DNA from: Opitutaceae bacterium
GTDB taxonomy: Bacteria; Verrucomicrobiota; Verrucomicrobiia; Opitutales; Opitutaceae
Assembly: GCA_014376585.1 (NCBI GenBank)
Contig: JACMRG010000373.1
Location: forward strand, 1 to 43,004
Length of the DNA stretch: 43,004 nt
Direction of reading: 5' to 3'
Shown: in pieces, positions 32,036-38,440 of the stretch
Numbering within the stretch: the stretch's first letter is position 1
Layout: each line of letters begins with the position of its first letter
Position numbers and translations under genes: made by a program
Notes under the pieces: generated by a model
What the model was told of the DNA's origin: nothing
What the model saw: the letters and a program-made list of their open reading frames with translations, nothing else
Database searches by the model: none

Positions 32036-32938
32036 ATGACCTTCCACTCCATCGAGCGGCTCGGACACCCCTTCGCCAGCGTCTCGGAGCTGGGTCTCGT
32101 CATCCCGCGCGACAGTGAAATGCTCGTGCGCAACCCCGAGGTGAAGCTGCTGTTTTTCCTCCAGGCCGAGTGCGAGCAGGAGATCGACGGCGTCGGCCGT
32201 TTCCCGATGAAAGCCGGCGACATCTGTGTGGTCCCCCGCCTGTGCCTCCAGCACTACCGGCTCGTCCGCCCCCGCGACCTGCCCCGCATCCATGTGTTGA
32301 AAATATCCCTCGGCCTCCCGCCCCTCCCCGCCCCGGGCCAGCCCGCCGGCAAGTTCGCCGTGAAGGGCAATCCCGAATCCGACCTTGGCGCCTTCTGCCA
32401 ACACCACTTCACGGAGATCCGTCATCTGCCCGCCGCCCAGGATGCGCCAATGCAAGAGATCATGCTGGCGATCCGCCGCGAAGCCGAAGAACACCGCGCC
32501 GGCATTCGCCACCGCGTGCGTGCGCTCTGCACCAACCTCCTCGTGCATGTCGCCCGCCGCCTCCACGACAGCCCTGCGGTCGCCAAGGCCACCGCCGCCG
32601 GCCACGGCTTCGTGGTGAACCAGGCGAAAGAATTTCTCCGCCGGAATTTCGCCCAGGCGCTCACGCTCGGCGAAATCGCCTGGCACGTTAAAATGAGCGA
32701 AGAGCATCTCGCCCGCGTCTTCCGCAAGGTCACCGGCCAGACCGTCTTCGACTACCTGCGCACCGTCCGCCTCGAAAGCGCGAAGACCCTGCTCATCGAC
32801 TCCAGCCAGACGCTCACCGAAATAGCCGCGCTCACCGGTTTCGGCTCACTCTCGCTCTTCAGCCGCAACTTCAGCCAATACGTCGGCCAAAGTCCCTCCG
32901 CCTACCGGCAGGCCCGCGCCCAGAGTGTGCAATGGTGA
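32036..32938 (+). CDS. AraC-family transcriptional regulator
   Basis: The 300-residue DNA-binding regulator has a cupin-like N-terminal sensing domain (~1-90; EQEIDGVGRFPMKAGDICVVPRLCLQHYR). The C-terminal AraC/XylS double helix-turn-helix spans ~195-295: LTLGEIAWHVKMSEEHLARVFRKVTGQTVFDYLRTVRLESAKTLL, then LTEIAALTGFGSLSLFSRNFSQYVGQSPSAYR. ATG at 32036 is supported by the start of the cupin fold. It faces away from the TonB-dependent receptor operon, the usual arrangement for a local activator sensing the imported compound or its breakdown product. Control of the whole minus-strand locus down to 22554 is likely but inferred. Confidence 0.92.
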   Translation: MTFHSIERLGHPFASVSELGLVIPRDSEMLVRNPEVKLLFFLQAECEQEIDGVGRFPMKAGDICVVPRLCLQHYRLVRPRDLPRIHVLKISLGLPPLPAPGQPAGKFAVKGNPESDLGAFCQHHFTEIRHLPAAQDAPMQEIMLAIRREAEEHRAGIRHRVRALCTNLLVHVARRLHDSPAVAKATAAGHGFVVNQAKEFLRRNFAQALTLGEIAWHVKMSEEHLARVFRKVTGQTVFDYLRTVRLESAKTLLIDSSQTLTEIAALTGFGSLSLFSRNFSQYVGQSPSAYRQARAQSVQW

Positions 32939-33002: not shown

Positions 33003-34664
33003 ATGAAACCTCTCCAACCTCTTGCCGCGCTCGCGGCCCTTTTCCTCTCGGCCGCCGCCCTCCGCGCGATCCCCGTCGATTCCCGGCTCACCGCCGCCAC
33101 GGTCTATCTCGACCGCGCCGTGGTCACCCGCGCCGCCGCCGTTGAACTCACCGTCGGCGTGCAGGAACTCACGTTTACCGCGCTTCCCCCCAGTCTCGTG
33201 GACCAATCGCTCCAAGTCGCCGGTCGCGGCACCGCCACCGCCACAATCCTCGACGTGAGCGCCCGCCAAGTCTTCGTCGAACTCACCCCCGACGCCCGCA
33301 TCAAAAACCTCGAAGACGAACTCAACGTTCTCATCAAACAGCGCCGCAGCCTTGATGACCGCGGAAAACTCCTCGAAAGCCAGCTCGCGACCTTCGTCCA
33401 CATGGAGGCGGCTTTGATCGCCCCGCCCACCAAAGACGCCCCGCGCCCCACCCTGGCCGAACTCACTGCCACCCTCGCCTTCCTCACCGAACAACGCACC
33501 AAAAACACCGCCGACCAAGCCGCGCTCGACGAAGCCCGCGACGCCCTCGCTCCAAAAATCGCCGCCGCCGAGGCCCGCCTCAACGAACTCCGCGGCACCG
33601 CCCAACGCCGCGCCACCAAAACCGTCACGGTCCGCGTCAACGCCACCGCCGCCGGCCGCCTCGATATCACCCTCAGTTACACCGTCCCCGGCGCGAGCTG
33701 GACGCCCGCTTACGACGCCCGCGTCGCCGCCGCCGACCGCGCCGTCGAGCTGAGCTACTTCGGAGTCGTCCGCCAAAACACCGGCGAAGACTGGCGCGAT
33801 GTCGCCCTCACTCTCTCCACCGCGCGCCCCTCGCTCGGCGGCGGACCCGCGCCGCTCTCGCCGTGGACGTTGGATGTGTTCACGCCGCGCCTGCCGGTGG
33901 CCTACGCAGAACGCCGGGAACAGACTTTTGGCGGCAGAGCCAAATCCGTCGACGTAGTGATGCTCGAGATGCCCATGGCAGCCGCCAGCGCTTCCGCCCC
34001 GGCCGAACAAGACGCCGCCTTCTCCACCGCCACCGTCGAAACCGCCGCCACGAGCGCCACCTTTCGCATCGCCGCGTCCACCTCCGTTGCCAGCGACAAC
34101 GCCCCGCAAAAAGTCGCCATCACCACCACCAAGCTCGCCGCCACGTCCGAATACCTCGCCATCCCGAAGCGCCTCCCCGCCGCCTTCCTCACGACGAAGG
34201 TCATCAACACCTCCGAATTCCCCTTCCTCGCCGGCGCGATGAACGTCTTCCTCGACGGCACCTTCGTCGCCGCCAGCCAGCTGCGCGCCGTGCAGCCCGG
34301 CGAGAAATTCGACCTCGCCCTCGGCGTGGACGAGGGCATCGCCCTCAAGCGCAAACTCGTCAACCGCTTCGCCGAAGACACCGGCCTCACCAACGGCGGC
34401 CGCCGCGTCACCTACGAATTTCTCCTCAGCGTGCAGAACAATAAAAAGACCGCCGAGCGCGTCGTCCTCCACGACCAGCTCCCGCTCTCACGCAACGAGA
34501 AGATCGTCGTGAAACACCTCGCGCCCGACCCCAAGGACCTAAAGCCCGACGCCGAAGGCACGCTCAAGTGGACGCTCGACCTGAAGCCCGGTGAGAAACG
34601 CGACATCACCCTGAAGTTCAGCGTGGACCACCCCGCCGACGTCAACGTCACCGGCCTGCAGTAA
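33003..34664 (+). CDS. MuiA-like DUF4140/DUF4139 protein
   Basis: The 553-residue exported protein has a signal peptide (MKPLQPLAALAALFLSAAALRA). The N-terminal DUF4140-type domain (~25-125; AATVYLDRAVVTRAAAVELTVGVQELTFTALPPSL) is followed by a coiled-coil stretch (~100-200; EDELNVLIKQRRSLDDRGKLLESQL) and the beta-rich DUF4139 domain (~210-553; YTVPGASWTPAYDARV, GEDWRDVALTLSTARPS, FPFLAGAMNVFLDGTFVAAS). The family includes the so-called mucoidy inhibitor MuiA; its biochemical role is not established. The stop overlaps by 17 bp the 3' end of the convergent photolyase-like gene. It is probably monocistronic, 64 bp after the AraC gene. Confidence 0.9.
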   Translation: MKPLQPLAALAALFLSAAALRAIPVDSRLTAATVYLDRAVVTRAAAVELTVGVQELTFTALPPSLVDQSLQVAGRGTATATILDVSARQVFVELTPDARIKNLEDELNVLIKQRRSLDDRGKLLESQLATFVHMEAALIAPPTKDAPRPTLAELTATLAFLTEQRTKNTADQAALDEARDALAPKIAAAEARLNELRGTAQRRATKTVTVRVNATAAGRLDITLSYTVPGASWTPAYDARVAAADRAVELSYFGVVRQNTGEDWRDVALTLSTARPSLGGGPAPLSPWTLDVFTPRLPVAYAERREQTFGGRAKSVDVVMLEMPMAAASASAPAEQDAAFSTATVETAATSATFRIAASTSVASDNAPQKVAITTTKLAATSEYLAIPKRLPAAFLTTKVINTSEFPFLAGAMNVFLDGTFVAASQLRAVQPGEKFDLALGVDEGIALKRKLVNRFAEDTGLTNGGRRVTYEFLLSVQNNKKTAERVVLHDQLPLSRNEKIVVKHLAPDPKDLKPDAEGTLKWTLDLKPGEKRDITLKFSVDHPADVNVTGLQ

Positions 34665-35883
34665 ACTTCCCCTCCGCTTTCACTTTTTCCCAAAACGGAA
34701 AATATCCGTGCCCCGCGTGCGGAAACAGTTCCGCGTCCCACGCCCGCCGCCGCCAAATCACCGCCACGCCCGCCGCGCCCAGCGCCCGCTCCACGGCCGG
34801 CGCTTCGTCAAGCCACGGCCCGACAAACGGCCGATACGCCACCACGCGCCGCAGGTTTTTCTCCCGCGCCCACGCGACCAGCTCCGCCGCGAGGTCGTTG
34901 GTCGCGCCGGCCTTTGCCTCCGAGCCGAAGTGCCCGGTTGCGCGCACCGCACCGTCGGCCAGCGCCGCTTGCGTCCACGCCGTTACCCGCTCGCCCCAAC
35001 CGGCTCGCGCCGCGATCCCGGTCGGCCACGCCGCGTTCACCGCCACAAATTTATCCCCCGCCAGTTCGCCCACCTCGACCGCCAAATCCTCCGCGTGCAG
35101 CCAGAGGCCGACGCGGTCGCCCGACGCTCCCGCGCTCGCCGTCCTCCACCCGTCGTCGGTCCATGCATCCACCTTGGGCAGCGGCTGCTCGGTGATCGCA
35201 AATGCCGCCCTCGCGAGCTGTCCCGCCTCCGGCGCGCAACGTCCTTCCGTGTAGTGCGCGATGTTGTCCGCCCGCGCCGCATAGGTTTTCCCCGCCGTCT
35301 GCAGGCCCGCGACCCAGCGCCATGAGAGCGTGTTGCTCGCCGCGTCTCCGTCGAGGAGGTGCTCGTAGAAGAACGCCGCGCCCAGCTCCCACGGCAGTCG
35401 CAACGTGAAAATCCAGATCGAGGCGAACCACATCCGCGCGTGATTGTGGAGATAGCCCGTCGCTACCAGCTCGTGCGCCCAATCGTCAAAGCCCGCGATT
35501 CCCGTCTGCCCCGCGCACGCCGCCTCCCACGCATTGCTCTGCTCCCCGCGCAACCCGTCCCGCTGTCGCGGCACCGCTTCCACCCACCGCGCCCACGCCG
35601 CCGGCCGCTGTTCCAGCCAGCCTTTCCAATACGTGCGCCAGTAAACCTCCTGCACAAATTTCTCCACCGCCGGCCACGTCCAAGCCCCCAGCGCCGCTTC
35701 CACGACCTCGCGTTCCAACAGCAGCCGCTTCTGCACCCAGGGCGAGAGCCGCGCCACATGATCATGCCCCGGTCGCACGAAATTCCGCTGGGCCGCATAG
35801 TGCCCCGCCAGCGGCAAAAACCCCGCCAGCCGCGCCTGCGCCGCCGCCCGCGTGGGCGCGAAATTGATTGCCGATTGGTTCAT
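34648..35883 (-). CDS. Photolyase/cryptochrome-like flavoprotein with permuted domain order
   Basis: ATG at 35881-35883 gives 411 residues. Residues ~1-215 are the FAD-binding domain that normally forms the C-terminal half of DNA photolyases: TRAAAQARLAGFLPLAGHYAAQRNF, VARLSPWVQKRLLLEREVV, YWRTYWKGW, ATGYLHNHARMWFAS, LLDGDAASNTLSWRWVAG, ADNIAHYT. Residues ~255-405 look like the alpha/beta antenna-type domain that normally comes first: VGLWLHAEDLAVEV (compare WFRRDLR), LVAWAREKNLRRVVAY, DEAPAVERALGAAGVAVI, LFPHAGHGYFPFW. The order is thus reversed. FAD binding is well supported. DNA repair, photoreception or another flavin role is open. The FAD part resembles the stand-alone 'FAD-binding domain-containing' proteins of bacteria. 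The gene is convergent with the MuiA-like gene. Confidence 0.85.
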   Translation of the reverse strand: MNQSAINFAPTRAAAQARLAGFLPLAGHYAAQRNFVRPGHDHVARLSPWVQKRLLLEREVVEAALGAWTWPAVEKFVQEVYWRTYWKGWLEQRPAAWARWVEAVPRQRDGLRGEQSNAWEAACAGQTGIAGFDDWAHELVATGYLHNHARMWFASIWIFTLRLPWELGAAFFYEHLLDGDAASNTLSWRWVAGLQTAGKTYAARADNIAHYTEGRCAPEAGQLARAAFAITEQPLPKVDAWTDDGWRTASAGASGDRVGLWLHAEDLAVEVGELAGDKFVAVNAAWPTGIAARAGWGERVTAWTQAALADGAVRATGHFGSEAKAGATNDLAAELVAWAREKNLRRVVAYRPFVGPWLDEAPAVERALGAAGVAVIWRRRAWDAELFPHAGHGYFPFWEKVKAEGKFTAGR

Positions 35884-35964
35884 CCGCGCACGCAACACCG
35901 CCGCCCGCCGCGCGCAACCGTCCGCCCGGGATTTCATCGACGCCCGCCTCTCGGCGACGACCGA

Positions 35965-36819
35965 TTATTCTAACAACCCGCGCAGAAACGTCAGCCCTTC
36001 CCCCGCCAGCGCATCCTGTGTGACCGCCAGCGGCCGCCAGATCGCCGCCGCATCCGCGATGGCTTTGCACTCGGGCGTGAACGACTCGATCACCACCGCG
36101 CCGTTATAACCGATCTCGCGCAGGCCCTGTTGCACCTGATCCCATTTCACCAGTCCGGTGCCGGGCGCACCGCGATCATTTTCGCAGCCATGCACGTGGG
36201 CCAGCCGCGGACCCGTGAGCCGGATCGCCTCGAGTAGAGATTTTTCCTCAATGTGCATGTGGAACGTATCGAGATGGATCCTCACCGCCGGCGAACCCAC
36301 TTCATCGATGAGCCGCACCGCCTGCGCCGCCGTGTTGACCAGATCGGTTTCAAAACGGTTGAGCGGCTCCACCGCGAGCATCACCCCGGCGTCCGCCGCG
36401 ATCTTGCCCGCTTCGCGCAGCCCGACGACCGCGCGGTTCCACTCGATCTGCCGCTGCGCATCCGGCAACTGCCGGCGCTTGCCCACTGCAGAATAAATCG
36501 GCCCGGCGAGCAGGGTGCTGCCCCAGGCTTTCGCGAGCGCCAGCGTGTCGCGGATGTAGGCGATGCTCTCGCGGCGAAAACGCTCATCCTCATGTGTAAG
36601 ATCGCGCGACGGGCCAAACGCGCCGCACACGATGGGCTTCAACCCGGTTTCGCGCAGCGCACGAGTCACCGCACCGTCGGCCGCGAAATGCGCGGGATCT
36701 TCGACGGCGATTTCAAACGCATCGAAGCCCATGGCTTTGGCGCGATGAATGAGTTCGGCCGAGGCGTCGCTCATCGGCGACGTCCAGACCCAGGAATTGA
36801 TACCGAAGGCGATGCTCAT
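35965..36819 (-). CDS. Sugar phosphate isomerase/epimerase (ketose 3-epimerase-like)
   Basis: ATG at 36817-36819 gives 284 residues forming a TIM barrel of the xylose isomerase-like superfamily. The four metal ligands of D-tagatose/D-psicose 3-epimerases are present in register: Glu151 (LAVEPLNRFETD), Asp184 (IHLDTFHMHIEE), His210 (AHVHGCENDRG) and Glu245 (VVIESF). The Arg in DRGAPG is also typical. Length and ligand spacing match the epimerase subfamily closely, so interconversion of ketoses at C3 is a good guess; myo-inositol-type or other substrates are possible. No signal peptide, so it acts in the cytosol. It lies 81 bp upstream of the photolyase-like gene on the same strand, perhaps a short operon. 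Confidence 0.88.
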   Translation of the reverse strand: MSIAFGINSWVWTSPMSDASAELIHRAKAMGFDAFEIAVEDPAHFAADGAVTRALRETGLKPIVCGAFGPSRDLTHEDERFRRESIAYIRDTLALAKAWGSTLLAGPIYSAVGKRRQLPDAQRQIEWNRAVVGLREAGKIAADAGVMLAVEPLNRFETDLVNTAAQAVRLIDEVGSPAVRIHLDTFHMHIEEKSLLEAIRLTGPRLAHVHGCENDRGAPGTGLVKWDQVQQGLREIGYNGAVVIESFTPECKAIADAAAIWRPLAVTQDALAGEGLTFLRGLLE

Positions 36820-36921
36820 GATGGGTGGGGGCGGCAATGCCGGTCTTGGTTTGACCAAGCCCGTCACGTCACCCGCACATATGGCAGGCGAACCCGCAAC
36901 CTCGACAAGAGCGAAAAATTT

Positions 36922-36952
36922 AAGCCGCCGGTCATGGCCAGACCGGCGGCTT
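36922..36952 (-). terminator. Strong hairpin, probable terminator of the outer-membrane protein gene
   Basis: A perfect 12-bp stem (aagccgccggtc/gaccggcggctt) has a 7-bp loop. On the minus strand the stem is followed by aaattttt, a moderate T tract. It lies ~190 bp after the stop of the gene at 37144 and ahead of the epimerase gene. Confidence 0.6.
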
Positions 36953-37026
36953 GCGGAGGAGCGCGCGATTTCTCCGCGCAATTTTATCTAAAGCCTGTCA
37001 CGCACTTTTTCCAAAGGTCGCAGCGT

Positions 37027-37143: not shown

Positions 37144-37782
37144 TCAGAAGTGGAAGTTCACGCCCGCCGCGTAGCGGATGTTGTGGCTCTCATCCATCTT
37201 GGCGCCGAGCGACGCGCTCCACTCCTTCGTGAAGCGATAGTTGCCCTGCACGCCGTAGTTCCACTCCTGCTCATGGACTTTCGGTGCGTCTTCATAGCTC
37301 ACGTAGGGCGTGAGCACGAACTTTGGCGCGAGTTGGAACTCGATACCCGTCTTCGCCGAGTAGGCGAAACCGTTGTCGTGCCTGCCGCCGACCCTGTCCC
37401 ACGCCCAGCCTACATTGCCCTGGAGGAACGCTTTGCCCCAGCCCAGCGAGCGGTAACCGGTGAGACCGACGACGGCGAGCTGCTGCTTGGACGTCACGCC
37501 TTTGGCACTACCGGTGGCGTAGTCGTAGTTGAGGTTGAAATCGAGCCCCTCGGGCAGGGGCTGATTATAGACGAAGCCGTAATCGCGCACGACCCGCGGC
37601 CCGCCTTCGACCTGATGCGTATAGCCGAATTCGGCACCGGCGTAGGTCGCGCCGAGCAGGCCGACGCTCACGCCGACCGGACGCGGCGGCGCGAACGATT
37701 TGTCCTGCGCCGAGGCGCTGGCCGCCAGGCTCAGCAGCACGACGCTGGAAATAGAGAGAAACTTCAGTTGGGAGGTTTTCAT
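37144..37782 (-). CDS. Small outer-membrane beta-barrel protein
   Basis: ATG at 37780-37782 gives 212 residues. The upstream part of the frame overlaps the divergent gene and is not credible. A signal peptide (MKTSQLKFLSISSVVLLSLAASASA) is followed by alternating strands rich in Tyr, Trp and Gly (VSVGLLGATYAGAEFGYTHQV, LDFNLNYDYATG, KAFLQGNVGWAWDRVG, FVLTPYVSYEDAP, WNYGVQGNYRF, EWSASLGAKMDES). It ends with RYAAGVNFHF, the aromatic-ended signal for outer-membrane insertion. Size and pattern fit an eight-stranded barrel of the OmpA/OprF or porin-like type. The role is unknown. It is divergent from the peroxiredoxin gene, across 145 bp. Confidence 0.85.
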   Translation of the reverse strand: MKTSQLKFLSISSVVLLSLAASASAQDKSFAPPRPVGVSVGLLGATYAGAEFGYTHQVEGGPRVVRDYGFVYNQPLPEGLDFNLNYDYATGSAKGVTSKQQLAVVGLTGYRSLGWGKAFLQGNVGWAWDRVGGRHDNGFAYSAKTGIEFQLAPKFVLTPYVSYEDAPKVHEQEWNYGVQGNYRFTKEWSASLGAKMDESHNIRYAAGVNFHF

Positions 37783-37927
37783 GATTATTTTCTTTTTTGG
37801 TTTGGTGTTAGTTTCCCGCGACCCATGTCGGGGGAAGTTGTCAGACCGCCACGAACCGTTTAGTTCCGTGCCAAAAATTTGCGCCGGGCTTGCGGAATGC
37901 ACGGCACCCCGCATGTTCCGTCTCGCC

Positions 37928-38440
37928 ATGAAAATTCGCCCCCTCCTCGTGCTCTCCTCCCTACTCGCCATGTTTACTTCCGCGGCATCCGCCGAATCCC
38001 TCAAAGTCGGCGACGCCGCCCCCAATGTCACCGCCCTCACCGAAACCGGCGCCACGCTTTCGCTCGCCGATGTTTACGCTAAACAACCCTACACCCTCGT
38101 TTATTTCTATCCAAAAGCCGATACGCCCGGCTGCACCGCGCAGGGTTGTGCGCTGCGCGATGCCAACGACGAACTCGTCAAGAAGGGCGTCGCGATCATC
38201 GGCGTGAGCACCGACGACGTCGCCGCACAAAAAGCCTTCAAGGAAAAATATCACTTCCCCTTCACTTTGATCGCCGACAGCGACAAGAAAGTCGTCAAGG
38301 CCTTCGGCCAATCCGGCACGATGTTCGCCAGTCGCGAAGCCTACCTCATCAAGGACGGCAAGATCGTCTATCACGACACCAAGGTTACCGCGAAGCAGGG
38401 CGAAAACGTTCTCGCTTACCTGAACGCCCAAAAGGGCTGA
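37928..38440 (+). CDS. Exported peroxiredoxin, PrxQ/Bcp type
   Basis: The 170-residue thiol peroxidase reduces hydrogen peroxide and organic peroxides. The peroxidatic Cys69 and resolving Cys74 are in DTPGCTAQGCALRD, the five-residue spacing typical of PrxQ/Bcp; YFYPKADTPGC is the family signature. A signal peptide (MKIRPLLVLSSLLAMFTSAASA) places it in the periplasm, which is unusual for Bcp proteins but known in the wider family. The ATG at 37928 is chosen because it gives the shortest good signal peptide; ATG at 37913 would add five residues. It is followed by a strong terminator and is probably monocistronic. Confidence 0.93.
   Translation: MKIRPLLVLSSLLAMFTSAASAESLKVGDAAPNVTALTETGATLSLADVYAKQPYTLVYFYPKADTPGCTAQGCALRDANDELVKKGVAIIGVSTDDVAAQKAFKEKYHFPFTLIADSDKKVVKAFGQSGTMFASREAYLIKDGKIVYHDTKVTAKQGENVLAYLNAQKG

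Follow-up and report, generated by a model that had tools for sequence, protein, structure and literature searches.

A predicted NewPHL/SPL-type photolyase gene with inverted domain order in an Opitutaceae-like verrucomicrobium

The window analysed here, a stretch of 43,004 nucleotides from an Opitutaceae bacterium, carries a gene for a protein of 411 amino acids (aa) in which the two halves of a photolyase stand in the opposite order from that of textbook photolyases: the FAD-binding domain comes first and is followed by an alpha/beta domain of photolyase fold. This reversal had been proposed in a preliminary description of the sequence and is confirmed as a real feature. The inverted architecture is not new, as it matches that of a published class, NewPHL (also called short photolyase-like, SPL), of which Emmerich et al. 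2020 and Xu et al. 2021 are said to be the founding papers. Judged by its architecture and by the published descriptions, the gene very probably encodes a NewPHL cyclobutane pyrimidine dimer (CPD) photolyase of an Opitutaceae-like verrucomicrobium, and it documents in Verrucomicrobiota a known class that is probably directed at single-stranded DNA. The class is described in passages of PMC13274461, PMC9426592, PMC9649867 and PMC9178010, the first of which contains an account of its inverted topology and names UniProt A8LJA9 (D. shibae), M7YZC8 (M. mesophilicum), Q2N8F4 and B6IPR5 as NewPHLs.

Table 1. Positions of the photolyase gene, its two domains and neighbouring genes in the window.
Feature	Position	Strand	Remarks and basis
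Predicted NewPHL/SPL-type photolyase gene	34648-35883	-	411 aa, ATG at 35883; full-length homologues
N-terminal FAD-binding catalytic domain, residues ~8-212	35248-35862	-	Pfam FAD_binding_7 and PDB photolyases
C-terminal alpha/beta domain, residues ~256-405	34669-35118	-	AlphaFold2, Foldseek, and hhalign with shuffle control
DUF4139/DUF4140 gene	33003-34664	+	
Xylose-isomerase-like TIM-barrel gene	35965-36981	-	
Peroxiredoxin (AhpC/TSA) match	37700-38440	+	

The open-frame list also contains an earlier in-frame ATG at 35937, which would give a protein of 429 aa (18 additional residues). The FAD-binding half had been placed at residues ~1-215, and the searches agree: Pfam FAD_binding_7 (PF03441) matches residues 76-202 of the 411-aa protein (E = 1.1e-19), a phmmer search of the PDB aligns residues 8-201 with residues 200-395 of E. 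coli photolyase (E = 7.1e-12), and four NCBIfam matches to cryptochrome and photolyase models, all far under their cut-offs, lie within residues 4-208. The last 161 residues of the protein match no Pfam family. For the C-terminal half of the 411-aa protein neither Pfam nor NCBIfam supplied a family, and among the 79 members of our alignment (described below) the matches were only weak. We use for this half the name Z-domain, which is given to the C-terminal alpha/beta domain in a passage of PMC9426592.

The FAD domain is shortened. In the 411-aa protein the match covers positions 1-127 of the 203 in the FAD_binding_7 profile, and coverage ends at 124-128 when four inverted relatives are included. 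Three ordinary photolyases of relatives match positions 2-202, 1-202 and 1-203 of 203 with an N-terminal PF00875 ahead; the profile's final third is therefore missing from the inverted proteins, and a linker and the Z-domain occupy the place after the end of the match. The 411-aa protein does not have the class I layout, in which an N-terminal PF00875 is followed by a complete PF03441. The earlier reading as a circular permutation thus stands as regards domain order, but the permutation is not a clean one because the match also stops short of the final third of FAD_binding_7.

An AlphaFold2 model of the full protein, computed from the alignment of 79 proteins, has a mean pLDDT of 93.6 and a pTM of 0.92. 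A helical part extends to approximately residue 211 and is connected by a linker to an alpha/beta part, which has five strands (258-261, 281-287, 322-328, 346-350 and 374-378) and helices between most of them, in agreement with the alpha/beta fold suggested earlier for residues ~255-405. When this model was compared with the PDB, the best 50 of 831 matches were all photolyases or cryptochromes, with alignments of 210-262 columns, roughly one domain in length. Modelled alone, the C-terminal 190 residues gave a pLDDT of 88.3, and the best PDB match in Foldseek was Anacystis photolyase (E = 2.0e-4; TM-score 0.57 by query length). Photolyases and cryptochromes account for 43 of the best 50 of 1520 matches, including ranks 1-5, and universal stress proteins for the other seven, with the top one at rank 6. 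It is this retrieval that establishes the inverted order, and it also speaks against the objection, raised in the preliminary description itself, that the C-terminal model might be unrelated to the photolyase alpha/beta domain. The Foldseek output gives no matched range, and the region of the PDB photolyases concerned is presumably their N-terminal domain.

Descent of the Z-domain from the photolyase antenna domain is likely but not proven, since hhalign assigns the relationship a probability of only 21% (E = 0.001, with a 12-row profile of photolyase N-domains) and searches with single sequences are weak. The hhalign alignment is colinear as far as a closing F-x-P-F-W-K-like segment. In the control runs, for which the 11 good rows of the N-domain profile were used, the score was again 30.2, compared with a mean of 13.2 (sd 2.5, maximum 21.0) for 200 column shuffles and with 15.3 and 15.4 for reversed profiles; the shuffle control is lenient because column shuffles also destroy helix periodicity. 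In the profile search originally suggested for this part, PF00875 was matched by only 3 of the 79 C-terminal parts (best E = 0.0031). The phosphatase family PF04273 was matched by 8 of the 79 (best E = 9.7e-5). An hmmsearch of the PDB with the C-terminal profile returned four weak matches (best E = 0.0027), none of them to a photolyase.

The Z-domain might alternatively be some other HUP or universal-stress-protein-like domain whose fusion to the FAD domain had nothing to do with the antenna domain, in which case the protein would nonetheless count as a NewPHL. We consider this unlikely. It would account for the universal stress proteins among the structural matches, for the failure of hmmsearch to retrieve a PDB photolyase, for the broader and stronger PF04273 matches and for the low hhalign probability under a lenient control, but it fits poorly with the predominance of photolyases and cryptochromes at the top of the structural search and with a colinear alignment that scores above every shuffled and reversed control. 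Because the single-sequence evidence is weak and mixed, a HUP fold of separate descent keeps a minor share of the probability.

Antenna-domain descent may be extended to a fuller account, which we advance only tentatively: the antenna domain would have moved to the C-terminus, for example by tandem duplication and subsequent loss of the outer parts, and would have replaced the lost third of the FAD domain. If this is true, NewPHL/SPL arose by rearrangement as a derived class and the family does not descend from it, contrary to the ancestral position proposed for it in passages of PMC9498864 and PMC9649867. The sole point of wider interest here is whether the Z-domain is a transposed antenna domain, because this bears on the claim that photolyases and cryptochromes descend from this class.

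Relatives of the gene are encoded by at least 592 genome-contig stretches, so the inverted arrangement is more than a chance product. The 80 loci kept are the most similar of these (41-84% identity in the best segment), and the search favours full-length matches, three of its six patterns having been drawn from the C-terminal part. Together with the 411-aa protein, 78 of the 80 loci make up the alignment of 79 proteins (L004 and L005 are incomplete and were excluded). All 79 span both domains and match FAD_binding_7; in this set, chosen for similarity, the C-terminal extension for which the preliminary description proposed a survey of homologues is thus present across four phyla, namely Verrucomicrobiota, Pseudomonadota, Actinomycetota and, by one contig binned as a cyanobacterium, a fourth. 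Rhodobacterales relatives among the 80 loci have 41-50% identity; the characterised D. shibae and M. mesophilicum proteins are not among these loci. A tree of 90 FAD domains, with groups labelled by architecture, separates the 79 inverted proteins from the 11 that have the ordinary order (support 100/100). The neighbour of the 411-aa protein in this tree is from the MAG Opitutus sp. GAS368 (100/94), which makes an Opitutaceae-like source organism probable.

A match was found in 42 of 57 genomes, the source genome included. It extends into the second domain in nine (G000, G001, G007, G009, G010, G030, G033, G038 and G056; in G001, to residue 297), seven of which (all but G000 and G007) also have a FAD-only match. 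In the remaining 33, the match ends at or before residue 223, and the frames that hold it are 476-559 residues long, apart from one of 883. A Z-domain profile, scored on up to 11 first-look candidates per genome, matches 15 of 288 genomes of the phylum, again including the source. Two candidates were set aside. An apparent fusion in G206 (a 731-residue frame) looks like an ordinary gene whose open frame runs upstream, the upstream part being judged by eye. A possible stand-alone Z-domain in G156 directly follows the frame of a FAD domain and is read in a different frame; in this relative (L109:1236-2424) the gene is either split into FAD and Z parts or interrupted by a frame break. The source assembly (91.5% complete) yielded a single FAD_binding_7 match, which is this gene. 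A PF00875 match in the same genome (contig C26, 13-351; E = 4.9e-40) stops at the contig end, and an ordinary photolyase is therefore probably present as well. Five plasmid records cover 80% of the query (four annotated 'FAD-binding domain-containing protein' and one without a listed gene); five phage records match, and in none of them does coverage of the query reach 80%.

Ten residues are identical in all 79 proteins: E79, W82, N147, R150, M151, D178, D180, N184, W188 and W190. In the phmmer alignment these correspond to E. coli PhrB E274, W277, N341, R344, M345, D372, D374, N378, W382 and W384 (E. coli numbering counted by hand), which we take to be positions of the CPD and FAD sites. N184 is the flavin asparagine, a residue conserved in NewPHL according to a passage of PMC12083526. 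W165 (E. coli W359) is kept in 78 of 79. In the alignment, R106 stands where the usual triad has its third Trp; with W100 nearby and some Trp within residues 98-118 in 16 of the 79 proteins, a Trp dyad in the 411-aa protein is possible but not settled. The D. shibae NewPHL has a dyad in place of the triad, as stated in part of PMC8948257. Three residues of the Z-domain do not vary (G355, D383 and G393), and eight others hardly do (D266, A307, R314, R380, P388, A390, F394 and F395); mean column identity is 27% in the Z-domain alignment versus 44% in the whole-protein alignment.

Beyond the domain content and order, truncation, conserved residues and predicted fold observed here, we propose a function drawn from the class. 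The N-terminal helical domain would bind FAD, which, reduced and excited by light, would pass an electron to a cyclobutane pyrimidine dimer in the conserved site and so split it; this light-dependent repair would show a preference for single-stranded DNA. The Z-domain is most likely related to the antenna domain that photolyases normally carry at the N-terminus, here placed at the opposite end. With the final third of FAD_binding_7 missing, it would most likely lie against the FAD domain and cap the flavin pocket. A cryptochrome-like flavin photoreceptor of the same architecture, with repair lost in favour of light signalling, is very improbable: the far greater variability of the Z-domain, the plant cryptochromes among the matches of both domains and an AraC-type regulator encoded at 32036-32938 would suit it, but the ten checked CPD- and FAD-site positions are identical throughout the alignment, and the regulator neither adjoins the gene nor, by tblastn on the fetched loci with their short flanks, lies beside any relative.

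The neighbouring genes point to no special function. The end of the TIM-barrel gene is 27 bases from the ATG at 35937, which it precedes, and 81 from that at 35883; as the two genes share a strand at this spacing, they may be co-transcribed, and L005 has the same order. At the other side, the 3' ends of the NewPHL and DUF4139/DUF4140 genes overlap by 17 bases (34648-34664), and L008 has a convergent DUF4139/DUF4140 neighbour as in the window. At L002 and L083 (apparently the same gene), L082 and L086, a divergently oriented peroxiredoxin match is beside the NewPHL match, with ~32-113 bases between match ends; in the window and L005, epimerase-like and outer-membrane-protein-like genes stand between the two. 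Shared light or oxidative-stress control of the peroxiredoxin and NewPHL genes is possible.

The 4Fe-4S cluster of FeS-BCP/prokaryotic (6-4) photolyases requires four cysteines. The 411-aa protein has only two (C123 and C216), too few for such a cluster; no cysteine column is common to more than 26 of the 79 proteins, and 15 have no cysteine at all. Published accounts of this feature disagree: a passage of PMC9426592 describes Phr7 as without Fe-S cysteines and sets it apart from Phr4 and Phr6, while part of PMC9649867 ascribes an FeS cluster to SPL proteins. The other inverted type, that of marine Synechococcus/Cyanobium (phr4/phr5 or phr6, with inverted FAD and photolyase domains), shares its domain order with the 411-aa protein, as can be seen from the former source, but is scarcely credible as an identification given the cysteine counts, the separation of Phr7 and the PDB matches of the profile, which are much better for class I/III chains (1owl, E = 3.9e-26) than for the FeS-type chain 4dja (E = 0.00095).

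Among known systems, universal stress proteins (7ji4, 2dum) share with the C-terminal domain a general alpha/beta fold but are far outnumbered by photolyases and cryptochromes in its structural matches. Class I/III CPD photolyases (1owl, 1dnp, 4u63) have in common with the 411-aa protein the FAD domain, the CPD-site residues and the alpha/beta fold; they differ in that their alpha/beta domain is N-terminal and that FAD_binding_7 is nearly complete (in the three relatives checked). The closest likeness is to NewPHL/SPL proteins: like these, the 411-aa protein has an N-terminal FAD domain, a C-terminal Z-domain, a flavin-facing asparagine and, as in Phr7, no Fe-S cysteines. The characterised members were compared by description, and verrucomicrobial origin is the only difference found. 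The Dinoroseobacter and Methylobacterium proteins have the same FAD-then-Z layout and repair CPDs in single-stranded DNA, as described in part of PMC9426592.
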